From: a virus
Virus record (IMG/VR): IMGVR_UViG_3300036831_000156
Span: 1 to 25,282 of that record
Reading direction: 5' to 3' (one strand)
Length of the DNA: 25,282 bases
The notes under the pieces were generated by a model that was not told where the DNA came from, searched no databases, and saw only the letters and a program-made list of their open reading frames with translations. The translations under genes were made by a program, and so were the position numbers. Below are positions 13,608 through 24,798 of the stretch, piece after piece. Each line of letters starts with the position of its first letter. Position 1 is the stretch's first letter.

Positions 13608-14255
13608 ATGGGCGACATCCTGATCACCGGCAATGGCTTCACGGTCAAGGCTTGGCGCAACGGCGAGATCGTGCCCTCCGAAGGGTTCGGTGGTCACGAA
13701 GTCACCAACCGGCCCAAGAAGATCGGCATCACCGATTGGGCAGGCCGGCCGCCGTTCAAGGTCCAGCTGCCGATCATCCTCAGCGATCGCGGCGCGAGTG
13801 TGCTGGCTGCGCGCCAGACGCTCGAACAGGCGGCGATAGGCGCGAACAACCGACGCCCCGACGCCGTGCAGGTCCATCGGGATCCCGGCGCGGGCGGTGG
13901 AAGCGGCACGCTCGGCGACCTCCCGCCGGGCAGCGGCGCCGAAGGGTGGTTTATCGAGGACATCGACCTGTCCGGTCGCGCCAAACGCCGGCCGGACCGC
14001 ACACTCGTGCTGAAGGAGATCGTCCTCACGCTCCTGGAGAAGCAGGCCGGCGACACGGTTCGCGAGCCCACGCTCAGCGCGACGGTGGCGGGCAAAGCCG
14101 TCGCCACGCACTACATCGTCAAGAAAGGCGACACGCTGCCCTCGATCGCGGCGCGCGAGCTCGGCGACAGCACACGTTGGGGCGACATCGCCGTTCTCAA
14201 CGGTCTCCGGTCCTCGGGACAGCTCAAACCCGGGATGACTCTGAAGATGCCATGA
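13608..14255 (+). CDS. LysM-domain tail/baseplate protein
   Basis: A 215-residue protein with a phage domain (about 1-155) and a C-terminal LysM module (about 166-215: HYIVKKGDTLPSIAARELG, then WGDIAVLNGL and LKPGMTLKMP). The first part resembles proteins of contractile phages and PBSX-like particles encoded right after the tape measure, which attach the hub to the tube end. LysM would bind glycan or serve a structural role. The ATG at 13608 follows the tape-measure stop directly (TAAATG). The end overlaps the hub gene as ATGA. Baseplate assembly is inferred from order. Confidence 0.85.
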   Translation: MGDILITGNGFTVKAWRNGEIVPSEGFGGHEVTNRPKKIGITDWAGRPPFKVQLPIILSDRGASVLAARQTLEQAAIGANNRRPDAVQVHRDPGAGGGSGTLGDLPPGSGAEGWFIEDIDLSGRAKRRPDRTLVLKEIVLTLLEKQAGDTVREPTLSATVAGKAVATHYIVKKGDTLPSIAARELGDSTRWGDIAVLNGLRSSGQLKPGMTLKMP

Positions 14256-16135
14256 GTAGCGTCAAAGGACTCGGTGCATTCGCGCCGGGTGATCTGGAGA
14301 TCAACGGCAAGAAGCTCGCCGGGGACCTGCTGAGGATCGTCACTGACGCAGAACCAAAGCGAACAATCAGCGGCGGCTCGACCGTCACGCTCACTTTGGA
14401 CGACCCCGATGGCTGGCTTCAACAGAGCGGGCTCTATCGCCCCGACTCAGGGCACTACACGGATCTACACCTGGACGGCTTGTGGTTTCGCTCATGTGCA
14501 ATGGGCAAGTCGGGCAATGACAGAACCTGGGTATTCGAATCCCGGCCCGTCGCGCTCCTGCGTCTGCACACCAAGCCCAAGCGCGTCTCTCGGGCCCACA
14601 GCACGCTCGCGCAGTTCCTGAAGGGTTGCGTCGCCGAAGAGCCCAGCATTGGCTTCATCGCGCCCGAGCTCGCCAAGAAGCAGCCGATCGCCAAGCGAAC
14701 CGATGCCGAAAAGCGGGAAGTGCGAGATCGCAACGCCAAGAAGGGCATCGGATACGGCTCGGGCGTCACGGTCAAGGGCGCCAAGGCCGTCAAAGAGCAG
14801 ATCGATCTGCTCAACCGCAGTCTGGCCGTCGCGGAATCTCACGCTGCCAGCAACGATCGCGCCGCGATCGCCTTGGTCATCGCTGAGATCGACGAGAGTG
14901 AAGTTCACAACTACGAAAACTTCACCGCCGGCAGTGGCGACAGTCTCGGCATTCTGCAGTATCGGGTGAGCATCTGGGGCAGAGCCAAGGCGGTCGATGT
15001 CGAGTTCTGCGTTGCCGACTTCCTCACCAAAGGTTCGACTGGCGCCGGCGGTGCGATCGCGCTGGCGTTGAAACACCCGGACTGGACGCCCGCGCAGATC
15101 GCCTCAGCCAACCAGGGCAACGAAGCCGGCGCATCGGTCTACGCCCCCTATGAAGCCGAAGCCAAGAAGATCCTCGAGGCCTACGGCGGGATGACCGAAG
15201 GCCCGAGTGCCGACAACGCGTCGACCTACGTCAAGCAGTTCAACTACGGCCGCGGCGAACCCGTCGGGCCGCGCAAAGAGGACACCTGGGCGTGTGGCGT
15301 GCGCTACGCCGAACTGGTCGGCTGGCGCTGGTTCGAGCTCGACAACTTTATCTACTGGATCTCTGACTTCGATCTGATCCGCTCACGGCCGCGCATGATG
15401 ATCGACGAAGACTCGCCGGGAGTCGACTCGATCGACTACAGCCTGGACACGAGCGAAAAGAAGCCCGACACCGTCACGGTGAACTGCCGTGCGGCTCAGT
15501 GGGGTGCGCCGCCCGGAACGGTCGTTGGGCTCAAGGAGACAATGGGTCCCGACCTGGCCGGCGCCTGGATCGTTGCTGAGGCATCCAAGCCCAGCCTCGC
15601 CCTGCTCAACGCGACGATTACGCTGACCCGGCCAGAGGCGCCCAAACCTGAGCCATCCTCCTCGATAGTCGTTCGCCCTGGCGGCGAAGTCGGCGAAGAC
15701 CAGGGTGGTCTCCCGAACGGCTCGCACGTCAGCAAAGCGCTTGAAAAGGCCAAGTGGATCGACGCGCAGCATTTCCCCTACGTCTGGGGCGGTGGCCACC
15801 GCAGTGACGGTACGTTCGGACCGTCCGACAGCGCTGGCGGCTACTCGGGCACGGTCGGCTACGACTGCTCGGGGATGGTCTGCGACATCCTCCACAGCGG
15901 CGAACTGCTCGACGGCGGAGTCACGAATGTCGAAGGTCTGACCAAGTGGGGCAAGCCGGGCAAAGGTAAATACATCACCGTCTGGGTGCAGGGTCCCAAC
16001 GAGCACACCTTCATTGAGTTTGATCTGCCCACGGGCACTGTGTTCTATGAGGCCCATCACACCGGCACGATCGTCGGCGAAGAGCGCACTCGATCAACCG
16101 AAGGCTTCGAGCCGCGGCACTGGCCAGGCACCTGA
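14252..16135 (+). CDS. Baseplate hub with lysozyme-like and NlpC/P60 domains
   Basis: A 627-residue hub (gp27/gpD-like) starting at the ATG at 14252, which overlaps the LysM stop. The open frame upstream of it is a shadow. Residues about 1-130 and 325-465 look like the hub beta-barrels (GGSTVTLTLDDPDGWLQQSG; FIYWISDFDLIRSRP). A lysozyme/transglycosylase-like domain is inserted at about 195-312: Glu215 in AEIDESEVHN fits the catalytic acid, followed by SLGILQYRVSIWG and a VYAPYEAEAKKIL helix. The C-terminus (about 492-627) is NlpC/P60-like: FPYVWGGGH, then Cys539 in YDCSGMV and His585 in EHTFIEF. Two enzymes for crossing the cell wall in one hub is notable. Confidence 0.88.
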   Translation: MSSVKGLGAFAPGDLEINGKKLAGDLLRIVTDAEPKRTISGGSTVTLTLDDPDGWLQQSGLYRPDSGHYTDLHLDGLWFRSCAMGKSGNDRTWVFESRPVALLRLHTKPKRVSRAHSTLAQFLKGCVAEEPSIGFIAPELAKKQPIAKRTDAEKREVRDRNAKKGIGYGSGVTVKGAKAVKEQIDLLNRSLAVAESHAASNDRAAIALVIAEIDESEVHNYENFTAGSGDSLGILQYRVSIWGRAKAVDVEFCVADFLTKGSTGAGGAIALALKHPDWTPAQIASANQGNEAGASVYAPYEAEAKKILEAYGGMTEGPSADNASTYVKQFNYGRGEPVGPRKEDTWACGVRYAELVGWRWFELDNFIYWISDFDLIRSRPRMMIDEDSPGVDSIDYSLDTSEKKPDTVTVNCRAAQWGAPPGTVVGLKETMGPDLAGAWIVAEASKPSLALLNATITLTRPEAPKPEPSSSIVVRPGGEVGEDQGGLPNGSHVSKALEKAKWIDAQHFPYVWGGGHRSDGTFGPSDSAGGYSGTVGYDCSGMVCDILHSGELLDGGVTNVEGLTKWGKPGKGKYITVWVQGPNEHTFIEFDLPTGTVFYEAHHTGTIVGEERTRSTEGFEPRHWPGT

Positions 16136-16407: not shown

Positions 16408-16728
16408 ATGCCAGAACCCGATATCCCGCACCTGGCGTGGCCGCCGCGCTTTGACCCTCGCAGTGGCTCTGCGCTTGTCGATCAGAGCTCGCTCGAGCAG
16501 ATCCGCGAGAACGTCGGCGTCGTGCTCAGCGCGCGCCGCGCGTCGGTGATCGATGTAGCCGGCATGGGCATCGGTGACCAGGCATTCCGGGAGGGCGGCG
16601 TTGACCTCAACGAGCTGCTCACCGCGCTGCAGCAGTGGGAACCGCGTGCGATCACGGCGATGACCGCCGGCGAAATCGCCGAACGCGCGCAGGAGGTCGG
16701 GATCACCGTCTCTGGGGGCGTCGCATGA
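16408..16728 (+). CDS. Baseplate wedge protein (gpW/gp25-like)
   Basis: A 106-residue protein of the gp25/gpW type that starts sheath assembly and forms part of the wedge. The family pattern is visible: an N-terminal P-x-R-F-D-P-x-S-G segment (residues about 13-21), then SLEQIRENVGVVLSARRASV (about 28-47), a Gly-rich turn and acidic EGGVDLNELLTAL (62-74), and a final helix/strand. The position immediately before baseplate J is standard for contractile phages. The ATG at 16408 follows the previous stop with no gap, and the end overlaps the J start as ATGA. Confidence 0.78.
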   Translation: MPEPDIPHLAWPPRFDPRSGSALVDQSSLEQIRENVGVVLSARRASVIDVAGMGIGDQAFREGGVDLNELLTALQQWEPRAITAMTAGEIAERAQEVGITVSGGVA

Positions 16729-17891
16729 CCGATATCGAAGTGCCGGTCCAGAGCGATCCGAGCACCATCCAGCAGATCGGTGTCGACTATTTGCAGTCGG
16801 TGTATCCCCTCTGGACACCGAACCCCGCCAGCTACGACGTCCGTGAGCTCGGCGCGCACGCCGCGATGATCTCCGAGTTCATCAAGGTCGCCGTGCAGAT
16901 CCCCGAAGACGCCCTGACGCAGATCGTCGGGACGGTGATCTACCAGACCCCGCGCCAACCGGCGCTCGCTGCAGCGGTGCTCAGTCGGTGGGAAACCACG
17001 GACACCGCCGAACACACGATCCCAGCGGGCGTCAACGTTACGCTCACTGCGTCGGATGGCACGGCTGTCGGCTTTCAGACGACGGCTGACGTGACCAAGG
17101 CCGCCGGCGGCCATGTATTCGAACACGTCCCGCTCCTGGCGGTAGAACCGGGCGCCGTTGCCAACGGACTCAAAGGCCCCGCGACGTTGATCGACAGCCT
17201 GATCTCCGACGGTGCCGCCTGGGTGCAGAGCATTGAACTTGAGGAAGAAACGGCCGGCGGCGTCGATGAAGAATCCTCAGCCCAATACACGCAGCGGATC
17301 GTCGAACTCGCTCGCATCCTGGCGCCCAGAATCGTGCGCCCAGAGGACTACGCCACGGCCGCGCGCCTCTTCGTGCCGGGAATCGCTCGCGCGCTCGCGA
17401 TCGATGAATTCAACCCGGAAACGGGCAAAACCGACGCCGAGCGGTGCATCGCGGTCGCTGCGATCATGGCCAACGGCCAGCCGGCAACGGGCCCTCAGAA
17501 AGCGCAGCTGCTCGCCGTCTACGAACGGCTTCGCGAGCGCTCGTTCCAGCCGTTCGTCATCGACCCGACGTACACGGCGATAAATGTCGACTTCGCTGGC
17601 GTTGCCACCGCAGGCGAAACGCCTGCGGACGTCGAAGCGAGAGCCGAAGCGGCGGTCGCCACGTTCATCTCACCGGCCTTTTACGGGATGCCCGACACGG
17701 GCGACACGACCAGCTGGGAAGACCGGCCGATCCTGCGCTTCCAGGATGTCGTCACGGTGCTCAACAACGTCGATGGCTTCGATCACTACACGGCGTTGAC
17801 CCTCAACGGCGGAGGCGCCGACGTGGCTCTCGCTGGACCGGCGGCGCTGCCAGAAGTCGGCGCGATCACCGGCGCCGTTGTTGCGCCCTAA
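16725..17891 (+). CDS. Baseplate J-like protein
   Basis: A 388-residue wedge protein homologous in layout to P2 gpJ/Mu gp47. The ATG at 16725 overlaps the gp25-like stop; upstream in-frame sequence is shadow. Diagnostic stretches are HTIPAGVNVTLTASDGTAVGF (about 97-117), the Gly-Gly-Val-Asp-Glu-Glu-Ser-Ser-Ala-Gln-Tyr-Thr-Gln-Arg segment (about 179-192), and RIVRPEDYATAARLFVPGIAR (about 203-223), followed by a long Thr/Ala-rich beta region that normally contacts gpI and fibres. The 79-base gap to the following gene is one of the larger breaks inside this operon. Confidence 0.9.
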   Translation: MTDIEVPVQSDPSTIQQIGVDYLQSVYPLWTPNPASYDVRELGAHAAMISEFIKVAVQIPEDALTQIVGTVIYQTPRQPALAAAVLSRWETTDTAEHTIPAGVNVTLTASDGTAVGFQTTADVTKAAGGHVFEHVPLLAVEPGAVANGLKGPATLIDSLISDGAAWVQSIELEEETAGGVDEESSAQYTQRIVELARILAPRIVRPEDYATAARLFVPGIARALAIDEFNPETGKTDAERCIAVAAIMANGQPATGPQKAQLLAVYERLRERSFQPFVIDPTYTAINVDFAGVATAGETPADVEARAEAAVATFISPAFYGMPDTGDTTSWEDRPILRFQDVVTVLNNVDGFDHYTALTLNGGGADVALAGPAALPEVGAITGAVVAP

Positions 17892-17970: not shown

Positions 17971-19116
17971 GTGACGCAGTTGCCATTCACCTGGGCAGAA
18001 ATCATTGAAGGCGTCACCCGCGCGACTAAGGCGTTCTTCGAAGAATTCCGTACGGCGATCTCTCAGCTTGAAGTCCGCTCTGTGCCGCTGGGCGCGCCGT
18101 CGAAAGCGATCGCGGGCGACTTCGTACCGGACCTGAAAAGCCAGCAGCGGATGTTCCCAGTGACGCTGACTGGCGACCTGGTCGTGCAGACCCCGGTCAA
18201 CATGCCGGAGGCTCCCGAACTCTCTGAAATCCGGATCGTCCTCAAACAGGACGCGACAGGCGGGCGCAAAGTTACCTGGCCAGGCGTGACCGAATGGCGC
18301 GGAGGCGCCGCGCCGCCAATCAAGACGGCGCCGGGTGCAATCACCGAATACGTCCTGTTTTGCGACGACGGGGTGAACTGGTATGGCCTAGGCGAGCTCA
18401 GCCAGGCGGAAACCGAAGCTCTGATCGCGGCGCTCGCACCGGTGGGCTTGAGCGAAGCTGCGGTGCTCACGCTCATCGCAGCGCGCGCGTTGATCACGAG
18501 CGAACATCCGACCGCTGCCACAAATGCGGTCGCGAACGGTGCCGTTCTGATCGGAAGCGTGACCGCGGGACAGGCCGAATGGGTCGACCTGACCAGCTAC
18601 ATCCTGTTGCGGGCTAACAAGAGGACCGCTCCCCGCACGACTGTCGCCGCCAGCGTGACGCCGGCGGAACTCGGGCGCTACTACAGCGTGACAAAAAAAG
18701 GCATCACGATCTCGCTCCCGACGCTGGCAGAACTCAGCCTCTCCAACGCCACAGAAGGCGAAACGATCGTCGTCGAAAACGCCTCGGAAGGCGCGATCAA
18801 AGTCAAAGGCTTGTTCGCCGGCGTCGAAGCGATCAAAGAAGTGTTTCCGGGCGAGATCGTCACCTACTGGGCGGCGCAGAACCTGACCGAATGGTTCTCG
18901 CTCAACCACAAGCGAGTCGCCGGCGACGGCATCGTGCCGCTGCTCGACACGACGAGCCTCGCCACGACCGCGGCCATCACGGCCGCATACGAAAAACTCT
19001 TCACACCCAACAAGCCGCCGCGTGCCGGTAACGAGGTGCACGACAACGTGAACCACTGGCGCTACGTCTACAACGGCGTCAAATGGGAAAAGTCCAGTGT
19101 CTACACGGTGATCTGA
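17971..19116 (+). CDS. Tail fibre protein
   Basis: A 381-residue probable receptor-binding fibre. The GTG at 17971 is preceded by a closely spaced GGAAGGG. Layout: an N-terminal helical segment (about 1-35) likely to attach to the baseplate; a beta domain about 60-142 with FPVTLTGDLVVQTPVNM, RIVLKQDATGGRKVTWPG and a late YVLFCDDGVNWYGLG, a pattern common in phage fibres; a helical linker 145-175; a second beta domain about 210-315 with TISLPTLAELSL and NLTEWFSLN; and a short C-terminal module ending YVYNGVKWEKSSVYTVI. Glu codons are strongly GAA-biased (9 GAA to 1 GAG in about 130 codons), unlike the terminase genes, suggesting a different source. Fibre identity is from composition and position. 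Confidence 0.78.
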   Translation: MTQLPFTWAEIIEGVTRATKAFFEEFRTAISQLEVRSVPLGAPSKAIAGDFVPDLKSQQRMFPVTLTGDLVVQTPVNMPEAPELSEIRIVLKQDATGGRKVTWPGVTEWRGGAAPPIKTAPGAITEYVLFCDDGVNWYGLGELSQAETEALIAALAPVGLSEAAVLTLIAARALITSEHPTAATNAVANGAVLIGSVTAGQAEWVDLTSYILLRANKRTAPRTTVAASVTPAELGRYYSVTKKGITISLPTLAELSLSNATEGETIVVENASEGAIKVKGLFAGVEAIKEVFPGEIVTYWAAQNLTEWFSLNHKRVAGDGIVPLLDTTSLATTAAITAAYEKLFTPNKPPRAGNEVHDNVNHWRYVYNGVKWEKSSVYTVI

Positions 19117-21239
19117 TGCGACGGCGCAGACATCACCACGGTGGAGAAGGAGGCGGCGGCGGAGGAACGGGCGGTGCCAACCGCATTCTCGTCGCGGGCT
19201 ACGACGAGGCCGGCCAGCTGGGGCTCAACGCGCAGTTGGCCACGCAGAAGAACATCTCCTGGTACGAGGGCGTGCCGGTCCTCACGGGCATAGTCCAGGT
19301 CTGCCCGACAATGGCGCTCGACGGCCTCGGCCGGGTGTTCTCATGGGGACCGCCCCAGAACGGTGCGCTCGGCAACGGAGCTGTACTGCACAAATCTGGC
19401 CAGCTGGAGAACGACAGCCTGCCGGGCACATTTCCGGTGCTGCTCACGGGCGGACTGCCGCTGTTCCGCGAAGAACTGCTTGAAGGTGGGAAAACGTCCA
19501 CCATGCAGCCGCGCGGTCCCATCGGGCCGTTGCTGCCGCCAATAGCGGCGATTGGTGGCCACGCCAACCATCGTCACCTGCTCTGCCAAGACGGTCGCGT
19601 TCTGGCTTTCGGAGCCAATGATGGCTGCGAGCTTTCAAACGGCTGGGAAACCCGCGCGAACTTCGTCGAAGGCGTCGAACGAGCGGCTGCGGGACTACCC
19701 AGCGAACCATTGCTCAAAAAATACTCATTCTTCTATCAGGGCGCTCCATGGTGGGTGCAGACAGCGGGCCCGCCACAGACGGTGCAGCCGGGCGAATCGA
19801 ACATCCTCAAAGACATCGTGATGATGGCGGTTGGCGATGAATGCGCTGTATACGTCAGAAACGACGGCAAGATTTTCCAGGCTGGTTATCTCAATACGAG
19901 CAACGAAATCCCGCTGTACTGTGAAGAGGAAACGCTCTGGACTGAAGCCAACGCCCTCGCCGGCGGCAAGTCGATCGTGGCGATCGATTGCGGCAAACAG
20001 CTCTACATCGTCTTGCTGAGCGACGGCACGGTCAGGATCGGGCGCAAAGGCGTCGAAGGCGTCTGGGGCGACGGGGTCGAACTCGGATCGGCGATCCGCC
20101 AGATCCACCAGCCGACGATCGAAACTTCGCCCGGCGTCTTTGCACCGATGACAGGTGTCAAGGCGGTCGCATGCGGCGAATACGCCTGGCTTGTCCTGAA
20201 AACCGACAACACCGTGTGGGCGTGTGGCTCAAACGGTGAAGGGCAGCTCGGACTTGGTCTGCCGCTGCAGGAAGGGGAAGAAGGGGAAGAAGGCGCGCCG
20301 GAACGAGTGTTTATCAAGCATCCCCGGCAGATCACGTCGCTTGGAAAAACGGCTCGGGCGATCACGATGTCGGGGACGATCAGGGGTCTCGGCGCGTTCG
20401 GCGGGGACATCGCCGTGGCGCTACTGGAAGACGGCAAGATCAAGAGCTGGGGCATGAACCATGTCCAGGCGAGCAAAGGCGCCCGGCTCGCTGGTACGGG
20501 GGCAATCGCCGATGGGACCGTCGATTCGAAAAACGTCCCCACGTCGCCGCTCGATCAGCCGTTGACGGTCAACAGCATTGTGGGAATCGACGCGCGACCG
20601 GACCACGTCGCGCTGATCCAGAACAAAGCTGCGCCGCGCCCGCCGAAACTGACGGTCACGCGAGCTGGGCCATCCTCGATCCTGATTGTCCTGAGACCCG
20701 ACGAAGGCCCGCTTGGCCAGCTTCCGCGCCAGCGGGCCGAAGAATCGTTCGACATTATCGTCGCGAGCACAGAACGTAAAGAAACCTTCCGCTACAAAGC
20801 CCTCCCCGCCGGCACGCGCAGCGTCAACACGGGGACCGCGCTATACAACGGCAAACCGCCGCTTGTTCTGCCCCCCGGCGTGTACGAAGTCACTGTGATC
20901 GAAAACGTGATCACGGAATTGCCGCTGCCGCTGAGCAAAGTCCTCGCGATCGCCGGTGTCGCCCCGGTCGGCTGGCCGGCTCCAACGAAAGCCGAACCGG
21001 CGCTGCTGCTGGAATGGCGGCGGGAACGCACATATATCGAATCCAAAGGTGGTAAACCGGGTCCGCGCCAAGAGCCGTTTCACCGCCTCATCCTTCCTGG
21101 GACTGCGCTGTCGACGTCGATCACTGTCGCGCCCACGCACGCCTTCCCGAAAATCGAACCGGAAGAAAAACTCGAAGTTGAAGTCAAGGGCGCGTTCACT
21201 GGCACCTTCAATGGCCGCCAGGTGTCGGTGCGGGTCTGA
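19116..21239 (+). CDS. RCC1-type beta-propeller tail-associated protein
   Basis: A 707-residue protein starting at the ATG at 19116, one base inside the fibre stop. After a basic, Gly-rich leader (residues 1-20), RCC1-like repeats (G-x-x-x-x-x-A-L ... G-x-V-x-x-W/F-G) occur near 57-90, 145-176, 234-260, 287-320, 347-381 and 425-450. The strongest is VACGEYAWLVLKTDNTVWAC then GSNGEGQLGLG. A seventh half-repeat at 487-502 (SIVGIDARPDHVALIQ) could close with the N-terminal VAGYDEAGQLGLN (26-38), giving a seven-blade propeller. From about 508 the protein becomes Fn3/Ig-like (PPKLTVTRAGPSSILIVLR), then a further beta domain to the end. It is probably a receptor- or surface-binding tail protein; binding partner unknown. 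Confidence 0.85.
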   Translation: MRRRRHHHGGEGGGGGGTGGANRILVAGYDEAGQLGLNAQLATQKNISWYEGVPVLTGIVQVCPTMALDGLGRVFSWGPPQNGALGNGAVLHKSGQLENDSLPGTFPVLLTGGLPLFREELLEGGKTSTMQPRGPIGPLLPPIAAIGGHANHRHLLCQDGRVLAFGANDGCELSNGWETRANFVEGVERAAAGLPSEPLLKKYSFFYQGAPWWVQTAGPPQTVQPGESNILKDIVMMAVGDECAVYVRNDGKIFQAGYLNTSNEIPLYCEEETLWTEANALAGGKSIVAIDCGKQLYIVLLSDGTVRIGRKGVEGVWGDGVELGSAIRQIHQPTIETSPGVFAPMTGVKAVACGEYAWLVLKTDNTVWACGSNGEGQLGLGLPLQEGEEGEEGAPERVFIKHPRQITSLGKTARAITMSGTIRGLGAFGGDIAVALLEDGKIKSWGMNHVQASKGARLAGTGAIADGTVDSKNVPTSPLDQPLTVNSIVGIDARPDHVALIQNKAAPRPPKLTVTRAGPSSILIVLRPDEGPLGQLPRQRAEESFDIIVASTERKETFRYKALPAGTRSVNTGTALYNGKPPLVLPPGVYEVTVIENVITELPLPLSKVLAIAGVAPVGWPAPTKAEPALLLEWRRERTYIESKGGKPGPRQEPFHRLILPGTALSTSITVAPTHAFPKIEPEEKLEVEVKGAFTGTFNGRQVSVRV

Positions 21240-21919
21240 TGACGGGAACGATCGGGGAAGCCCTCATCCCCTTCGTGATAGGCGAAGGCGACGGCAGACC
21301 TGTCGTTAGCCCGGCTGCCGAGGCTCTCTACGCGCGTCTAGGGCCAATCGCTGCAGCCAACGATGCGGAGAACGACTGGTATGCCCTGCAGCGCTGTGAG
21401 GCGCTAGCGCGCATGCGCCAGGGCCTCGACGCCATCGTCGAGGACAGCGCCACGCACGCTGGCTGGACCTTGATCGCTGACCCCGACGCGGCGCCAGCGA
21501 GCTGGCTGCAGTGGGCCGCTGTCGCCCTGTACGGCGTGACGCTAGTGCCCGGGTCCTCAGAGGAAGAACAGCGCGCGACGCTGCGCGAGCTCCCGGTTCA
21601 GCGCCGCGGGACGGTCGAAGCGATGATTGCCGACGTCGCCAAGCAGCTCACCGGTGGTCAGAAAGTCAACGTGCTCGAGCAGCCGGGTGGCGACGCATAT
21701 GCCGAGCTCATCGTCACCAAGACGATCGAGACGCCGGATCCTGCCGCTGCGCTCGCGGCTATCCGGCGGCAGAAGATCGCGACGATCAAACAGGTCTACA
21801 TCAGCACGAATATCTGGCTGGTGGCGGAAATCGAGTTTGCCTATCGCCATCGCACGGTGGCGGAATTTGAGAGCGAATTTGTCATTGTCAGTGCAATCGA
21901 GGAACACGGGGTGATCTGA
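21239..21919 (+). CDS. Tail wedge protein gpI/XkdU-like
   Basis: A 226-residue protein resembling the gpI-type wedge component that pairs with J and carries fibres. Features: an N-terminal helical part (EALYARLGPIAAANDAEN), the stretch SWLQWAAVALYGVTLVPGSS (about 83-102), then EEEQRATLRELPVQRRGTVE (about 103-122), helix MIADVAKQLTGG, a short strand VNVLEQPGGDAYAELIV, and a helix before a final Phe/Tyr-rich segment. The Trp-rich helix followed by a Glu-Glu-Gln and R-R-G-T sequence is characteristic. Unusually it lies two genes after J, with the fibre and RCC1 genes between. Start and stop both overlap the neighbours (TGATG). The codon mix is mostly GAG, unlike the flanking genes. Confidence 0.72.
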   Translation: MTGTIGEALIPFVIGEGDGRPVVSPAAEALYARLGPIAAANDAENDWYALQRCEALARMRQGLDAIVEDSATHAGWTLIADPDAAPASWLQWAAVALYGVTLVPGSSEEEQRATLRELPVQRRGTVEAMIADVAKQLTGGQKVNVLEQPGGDAYAELIVTKTIETPDPAAALAAIRRQKIATIKQVYISTNIWLVAEIEFAYRHRTVAEFESEFVIVSAIEEHGVI

Positions 21920-22578
21920 TGGAAAGCACGATCAAACGTCTCGCGAAAAAGCTCATCAACACGGGGTCCGATTCGCCCCGGGCTTACCGGGAAGCGATCA
22001 ACGCGAACGCCGACATCTTGGAGGGACTCGGGTTGCCGGGCCTGATCGTCAGCCACAACGCAAGCTACGACGCGGTCAACGGCGAACTCGGCATGCAGGA
22101 AAAATCCGGGGCCACCATTACGCTCCCAGCTGCAGCCGCAAACGCGATCGTGGGCATCTTCTGCGGCCCTGGTGCCACCTCTGCGAAAGTCGCTGCCGCC
22201 GGCGCCGCGAAAATCCTTGGCGACTTCATCGAACCGTCCGCCTCGATCGCGCTGGCGACTCGTCAGCACGTCTTTCTCCAGGCCGACGGGACGAACTGGT
22301 TCATCATCGCCGGGGAACCGAAACGCTCGGGCTATGAAGCGCCAGTCGCGCGGGTCACTAACACGGAATACGAACCCAGCGCGACCCGCGAGACATTTGT
22401 GATCGTACGGGGGGACTTGTCATCGGGAGTGGCGGAGGCGGCGTGCGAAGGACAAGATGTCGGTGAATGGGAGGGGACGGCAGGCTCACTGGCATTTTTC
22501 TGCCCTGCTGGTGCAAAGTGGAAGATAACAGGCACGTTTATCGGGGGTTCGTTGTCGTCCATCTACTTGCCACGCTAA
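21919..22578 (+). CDS. Second fibre-like tail protein
   Basis: A 219-residue protein starting one base inside the gpI-like stop. The first 35 residues form a basic then polar helix (ESTIKRLAKKLINTG), a possible attachment segment. Residues about 60-135 repeat the strand layout of the second beta domain of the fibre at 17971-19116: ATITLPAAAANAIVGIFCG, IEPSASIALATRQHVFLQAD, GTNWFIIAGEP. The C-terminal 85 residues are Cys- and Gly-containing beta sequence (GDLSSGVAEAACEG to GSLSSIYLPR). Codons are GAA/AAA-rich like the other adhesin genes. Best guess is a short tail fibre or tip; a chaperone is less likely given the beta-rich content. Confidence 0.7.
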   Translation: MESTIKRLAKKLINTGSDSPRAYREAINANADILEGLGLPGLIVSHNASYDAVNGELGMQEKSGATITLPAAAANAIVGIFCGPGATSAKVAAAGAAKILGDFIEPSASIALATRQHVFLQADGTNWFIIAGEPKRSGYEAPVARVTNTEYEPSATRETFVIVRGDLSSGVAEAACEGQDVGEWEGTAGSLAFFCPAGAKWKITGTFIGGSLSSIYLPR

Positions 22579-24180: not shown

Positions 24181-24798
24181 ATGGTCGACTGGGCGCAGAT
24201 ACACCTCGACGAAGCTCGCGGGGCCTGGTGGCGAGCTAAATACGAGTACCGCAAGAGGCAACTGGACACTTGGGAGGCTCGCGTCAATCTCTCCAAGAAG
24301 CTCAAACACCCCGACGCCCAACACAACGCCGAAGGCGAGGTGCGCAAGTGGGGTCCGCTGGCGGGTGAAGCGGCAAGGGAAGTTCACAAGTACGCCGAAG
24401 CGGTAGCGCGGCTCAAGCCCAAGCCGGTTGGTCCCACCGGCGAAGGCTGGACCGTGCCGCAGACGGTCTGGAACCCTTATAGGCGCAAAATCGCCAACTG
24501 GATCACCCGCGAACTGATCTGGGCGCATGAACACGGCTGGAACGGGGTTATCACATCGGGGATTCGCACCTACGCCGAACAGAAAGTGCTCTACGAACGC
24601 TATCTGAACGGCGGCAACATCGCGGCTCCTCCGGGCCAGTCAAACCACGAAGGCTACGACTACACGCGCGGCGCGATCGACACGCCCGAAGCTGCGCAAC
24701 TCAACGCGGTGCTCGACAAGAACCCGCACCGCAAACTGCTCTGGGCCGAGACGCATGGACTCAACGACTTCGTTCACTTCTCAGGAACTGGGCGCTGA
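24181..24798 (+). CDS. Endolysin, M15-type D-Ala-D-Ala carboxypeptidase/L-Ala-D-Glu peptidase
   Basis: A 205-residue enzyme that would cut peptide stems of peptidoglycan to release progeny. Residues about 1-80 are charged helices (ARGAWWRAKYEYRKRQ), perhaps a spacer or cell-wall contact. The catalytic part (about 98-205) has SGIRTYAEQKVLYERYL (126-142), the zinc-binding SNHEGYDYTRGAID with His156 and Asp167, and a late NDFVHF with His199. The spacing His156 to Asp167 is longer than the compact S-x-H-x6-D of classical VanY but matches the PGxSNHE...GAxD variant. No recognised cell-wall binding domain is visible. The gene begins three bases after the holin-like stop. Confidence 0.85.
   Translation: MVDWAQIHLDEARGAWWRAKYEYRKRQLDTWEARVNLSKKLKHPDAQHNAEGEVRKWGPLAGEAAREVHKYAEAVARLKPKPVGPTGEGWTVPQTVWNPYRRKIANWITRELIWAHEHGWNGVITSGIRTYAEQKVLYERYLNGGNIAAPPGQSNHEGYDYTRGAIDTPEAAQLNAVLDKNPHRKLLWAETHGLNDFVHFSGTGR

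Follow-up and report, generated by a model that had tools for sequence, protein, structure and literature searches.

Predicted seven-bladed RCC1-type propeller in a putative adhesin encoded among the baseplate genes of a contractile-tailed phage

An open reading frame of 707 amino acids with RCC1 repeats, located among phage tail genes, raises the question of whether its repeats form a complete propeller and which function such a protein could have in this position. The window, i.e. the whole stretch of DNA that was analysed, is an IMG/VR virus record of 25,282 bases with a GC content of 65%. Family searches revealed on its plus strand, in this order, genes for the large subunit of the terminase, the portal, a head protease, the major head protein, the tail sheath, the tape measure protein, a LysM protein and baseplate protein J. 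Because this series includes tail sheath, tape measure and baseplate J, the structural genes are those of a contractile-tailed phage. The best GenBank matches of the portal were found in Arthrobacter phages (about 30% identity), and an actinobacterial host is only a guess from these matches.

Downstream of the sheath and tape measure genes, four genes are tightly packed on the plus strand. These are the genes for a baseplate J-like protein (16725-17891; PF04865, 4.8e-13; phrog_6, 4.3e-15), a tail-fibre-like protein (17971-19116; phrog_9017, 6.2e-8; phrog_7760, 4e-7), the RCC1 protein (19116-21239) and a tail protein I-like protein directly downstream of it (21239-21919; PF09684, E 0.0082, below the cut-off). 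The setting among tail genes, as described in the first-pass annotation, was thereby confirmed. The small protein encoded next on the same strand (21919-22578) might, judged by its position, be a further fibre or tip component; no family match was obtained for it in the Pfam and PHROG searches. Elsewhere in the window, the protein encoded at 14255-16135 possesses by eye a DCSG motif at its C-terminal end, like NlpC/P60 peptidases, and gave no Pfam match at 0.01. The gene at 24181-24798 showed a weak match to VanY-type peptidases (E 0.0022, below the cut-off) and possibly encodes an endolysin. A long repeat pair, as expected for a diversity-generating retroelement, was not found in the 25,282 bases, which are themselves a fragment.

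The stop codon of the upstream gene and the start codon of the RCC1 gene overlap in the sequence TGATG; an alternative in-frame ATG at 19083 would yield a protein longer by 11 amino acids. The GC content at the three codon positions (0.66/0.49/0.73) resembles that of the neighbouring genes. Two repeat profiles matched the protein above their curated cut-offs, namely RCC1_2 (PF13540; 2.7e-18, 65.6 bits, cut-off 22) and RCC1 (PF00415; 3.6e-10, 40.7 bits, cut-off 21.7). The single-model family WD40_RLD (PF25390) was matched with 4.5e-33 and 115.5 bits, below its whole-domain cut-off of 150, and the protein is not filed under that family; the same score of 115.5 bits was reached by gp12 of phage PollyC. 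Close relatives of the 707-aa protein were found neither in IMG/VR nor in the GTDB genomes or the GenBank phages.

A scan with the RCC1 unit xxAxGxxxTLALxxDGxVxxWGxNxxGQLGxG located six in-phase units, which occupy residues 55-88 (19278-19379), 143-176 (19542-19643), 234-267 (19815-19916), 287-320 (19974-20075), 348-381 (20157-20258) and 423-456 (20382-20483), all on the plus strand and all recovered in the alignment and the model described below. Five of the six scored 47-88 in the gapped scan; 200 shuffled sequences, which were scanned in coarser steps than the real one, reached at most 46 (mean 29). The unit closest to the consensus is the one at residues 348-381 (VACGEYAWLVLKTDNTVWACGSNGEGQLGLG), which was additionally detected by Pfam. 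The unit at residue 234 is degenerate, lacks the GQLG motif and scored only 9 without gaps, and its position was set by the family alignment. For this alignment, 78 viral RCC1 open reading frames of 340-500 amino acids, chosen for at least six repeat motifs, were aligned with MAFFT. Seven units kept their register between residue 22 and about residue 503, also in a later alignment with 73 relatives, and of the 219 columns in which the family consensus is defined, the domain matched 83. According to the alignment with the viral proteins, the seventh unit is split. Its N-terminal half comprises residues 22-38 (19179-19229, plus strand, including ILVAGYDEAGQLGLN), and its C-terminal half, which would close the ring, comprises residues 485-503 (20568-20624, plus strand).

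When AlphaFold2 was run on the single sequence, no confident fold was obtained (pLDDT 31). With an alignment of 74 rows, including 73 viral relatives, a propeller was predicted (pLDDT 67, pTM 0.71), in which most of the blade strands reached a pLDDT of about 70-90 and long insertions between the blades were poorly defined. The model contains six blades, an N-terminal strand at residues 22-29 and C-terminal strands at residues 485-491 and 497-503. In a Foldseek search the best PDB matches of the model were RCC1 and its relatives (E 1e-18), and VIA-align superposed model residues 2-485 on the second RCC1-like domain of HERC2 (RLD2) with a Z score of 37.5 over 335 residues at 2.5 A. The predicted structure is thus a closed seven-bladed propeller of residues ~20-505. 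Blade number and closure are partly inherited in this model, because its alignment consists of seven-repeat proteins, and the register of the repeats is more independent evidence than the model itself. The first-pass annotation had proposed six repeats and a seventh one split between residues 22-38 and 487-502, and this split proved to be right, since the alignment register and the model strands agree at both ends of the domain. The complete propeller of seven RCC1 units closed by a split blade, which it had also proposed, was likewise supported by the Pfam profiles, the repeat scan, the alignment, the AlphaFold2 model and the fold matches. Sequence and predicted fold place the protein in the RCC1 repeat family; this membership need not extend to the functions of RCC1 in Ran exchange and nucleosome binding.

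Beside the propeller, the protein has an unusual N-terminus (19116-19175, MRRRRHHHGGEGGGGGGTGG), which lies directly ahead of the propeller and in which no stem is visible. This tail is basic (MRRRRHHH, followed by glycines). The C-terminal region (residues 508-707; 20637-21236, plus strand) is, by analogy to gp63 of phage SP-15 and gp85 of phage LIS04, the putative virion-attachment part. For residues ~508-707, Pfam gave nothing better than E 0.15, a sequence search of the PDB returned no meaningful match, and single-sequence AlphaFold2 produced no confident structure model; in the Pfam and PDB sequence searches residues 501-707 contained no recognisable virion-anchor domain. The Fn3-like beta domains, which had been assigned to this region at first, are not supported by any of these searches.

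The gene order could be compared with one relative. Searches with J, portal and sheath retrieved as related phages only the record L003 (J 35%, sheath 30% identity) and a fragment (L104) which ends in the sheath gene. In L003 the genes for J and the I-like protein are adjacent, the latter being 34% identical to the I-like protein of the window, and no RCC1_2 match was found in this record. Because J is directly followed by the I-like gene there and the RCC1 match is absent from the record, the fibre-like gene and the RCC1 gene look like an inserted pair of adhesin genes, as far as a thin basis of one relative allows. A position of J beside RCC1 as a general rule was rejected, as J matches over the cut-off occurred in only 2 of 72 RCC1-bearing IMG/VR records, many of which are fragments.

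RCC1 repeats were detected in 78 of 50,697 GenBank phage records and in 446 IMG/VR stretches, some of them in tail genes. The surroundings of these genes were read in about a dozen GenBank phages. RCC1 genes were located in the tail regions of SP-15, LIS04, the C. difficile phage LIBA6276, Littlefix and the PollyC/SeaP phages; no clear tail setting was seen in 121Q, which carries an array of RCC1 open reading frames, and in S-SRM01, where RCC1 genes lie near genes of sugar metabolism. The strongest IMG/VR matches were often such arrays. Arrays in which many of the proteins comprise about 370-400 amino acids were observed in the jumbo phage 121Q (L096; about ten at 117000-130000 of the record) and in the IMG/VR contigs L080, L033, L056 and L058. 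Three cyanophage records (ON073792, PP438404 and PP438434) have the same length (42,586), and each encodes an RCC1 protein. In the one of these three that was inspected (L006) the RCC1 gene is surrounded by genes for glycosyltransferases and by further sugar genes, and phage genes are absent from the stretch, so that it may be host DNA. In PollyC and SeaP2, a T7-type tail-fibre N-terminus (PF03906, just below the cut-off) is joined to the RCC1 repeats, and PollyC also matches the tail fibre families phrog_33642 and phrog_13173. Nearly the whole length of PollyC gp12 matches phrog_4219, which is annotated as 'regulator of chromosome condensation' and filed under DNA metabolism. Since its first third also matches tail-fibre families, this label looks wrong, judged from the family matches.

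Some of these phages allowed a comparison of the RCC1 part with adjacent genes. In the Pseudomonas podophages PollyC and SeaP1-4, residues 1-300 of the fibre are 96-100% identical and the internal virion protein encoded next to the fibre gene is 99-100% identical, whereas the RCC1 part shows 38-60% identity on average per alignment segment (about 50%; more distant pairs 20-47%). The RCC1 proteins of the C. difficile phages LIBA6276 and AR1086-1 share 30% identity, in contrast to the three large genes upstream (99.8%, 98% and 86%); divergence is also seen in a glycine-rich protein encoded close by (57%) and in another small fibre gene. The proteins of SP-15 and LIS04 share 13-43% identity in the N-terminal RCC1 part and 38-65% in the C-terminal part, compared with 54-78% for the baseplate protein (27% in its last stretch). 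RCC1 is not the sole variable gene there, because the neighbouring genes SP15_062 and LIS04_84 (28-38%) are about equally divergent. These comparisons are descriptive and cover five, three and two phages, respectively. In three lineages other than that of the phage studied here, the tail RCC1 part is, by sequence, far more divergent than most adjacent genes. Such divergence is typical of receptor-binding and host-recognition tips.

It is therefore probable, in our judgement, that the protein is a baseplate-mounted adhesin of the receptor-binding or side-fibre type of a contractile-tailed phage. The outer part of the protein would be the closed seven-bladed RCC1-type propeller (residues ~20-505), whose loop-rich faces probably bind a polymer or a protein of the host surface, and the C-terminal 200 residues probably hold the protein to the virion. 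The receptor-binding role suggested by the first-pass annotation gained support from the gene position and from the divergence of the tail RCC1 proteins of other phages; the binding itself we infer from these. Alternatively, the propeller might be a structural baseplate component or spacer, a rigid scaffold which holds or orients the real adhesin (the product of the preceding or of the following gene, for instance) and makes no contact with the host. The location of the gene between J and the I-like gene, inside the baseplate block rather than after it, would fit such a scaffold, and in phage phi11 a single protein contains the propeller platform together with the stem and the tower which it connects (PMC4901313). 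For a scaffold, the strong divergence which distinguishes the tail RCC1 parts from their conserved neighbours in three lineages would be unnecessary, and we consider this explanation unlikely.

Two other functions appear far less probable. An RCC1-like condensing or exchange factor acting on DNA or chromosomes would agree with the basic N-terminus and with the PHROG families matching the protein, which are filed under DNA metabolism; the authors describing phAPEC6 suggested that phage RCC1 proteins act on DNA and may order packaged DNA (PMC7247149). A published DNA-binding test was not found. The gene lies inside the baseplate block, and phrog_4219 includes PollyC gp12 with its tail-fibre matches over the N-terminal third, both of which make a DNA-directed role very improbable. 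Moreover, bacteria, to our knowledge, possess neither Ran nor nucleosomes. Similarly remote is a surface enzyme, in which the propeller acts as a hydrolase, e.g. on a capsule or cell-wall polymer, in the manner of the endosialidase propellers. Some propellers of phage tailspikes are indeed enzymes (PMC4901313), but no match to an enzyme family was found for the protein in Pfam, and the solved structures matching the RCC1-type fold are mainly binding proteins (RCC1, HERC, UVR8 and the beta-lactamase inhibitor BLIP-II).

Beyond this phage, we lean, with less assurance than for the adhesin itself, towards the view that RCC1 propellers are recurrent, independently acquired host-recognition tips on unrelated anchors, which occur in podophages as well as in contractile-tailed and large clostridial phages, and of which the present protein would be a divergent member. 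They would have been hidden so far because they are annotated as chromosome-condensation or DNA-metabolism proteins. If this is true, a set of phage proteins labelled as DNA or chromosome factors would be host-recognition proteins, which matters for the prediction of host ranges from sequence. The Pseudomonas PollyC/SeaP group would offer a simple test system, as the compared tail proteins hardly differ outside the RCC1 tip. RCC1 proteins in phage genomes are known from databases, and propeller-type phage adhesins have been described (PMC4901313). A description of an RCC1-type phage tail adhesin was not found in the searchable literature, which leaves most subscription journals outside, and this type of adhesin is apparently undescribed in searchable papers. 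Mentions of RCC1 in papers on RcGTA, rumen phages and polymorphic toxins turned out to be names of strains or loci.

Among the known systems, human RCC1 (1A12) and HERC2 RLD2 (7Q40) resemble the protein in the seven units, the closure by a split unit and the fold over residues 20-503 (Z 33.8-37.5, 2.4-3.0 A). They differ in sequence (about 20% identity) and by the insertions of about 40 residues which the phage protein carries between blades in two places, and a Ran or nucleosome partner is not to be expected in bacteria. The first-pass annotation had spoken of a distinct architecture, which is too strong in view of RCC1 repeats in other tail genes and of gp131C of phage phiKZ (PDB 4GBF), likewise a seven-bladed propeller, though of another type, at the baseplate periphery (PMC4901313). 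The resemblance to gp131C, whose ligand is not proven (PMC4901313), is distant (Z 15.4, 12% identity over 266 residues, 4.4 A). The receptor-binding protein gp45 of phi11 also contains a propeller (PMC4901313), but one with five blades and of another family, in a trimer with a coiled-coil stem. PollyC gp12, the Ppr_SeaP1-4 proteins and Littlefix gp88 are likewise tail proteins of tailed phages that carry RCC1 repeats; in these podophages the repeats are located C-terminally behind a tail-fibre anchor, whereas they are N-terminal here and belong to a contractile-tailed phage. SP-15 gp63 and LIS04 gp85 share no C-terminal similarity detectable by sequence with the present protein, and their genes lie a few genes after J and tail protein I instead of between J and the I-like gene. 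They nevertheless have the same layout, with N-terminal RCC1 repeats and a better-conserved C-terminal part, and SP-15, according to its sheath gene, possesses a contractile tail, too.
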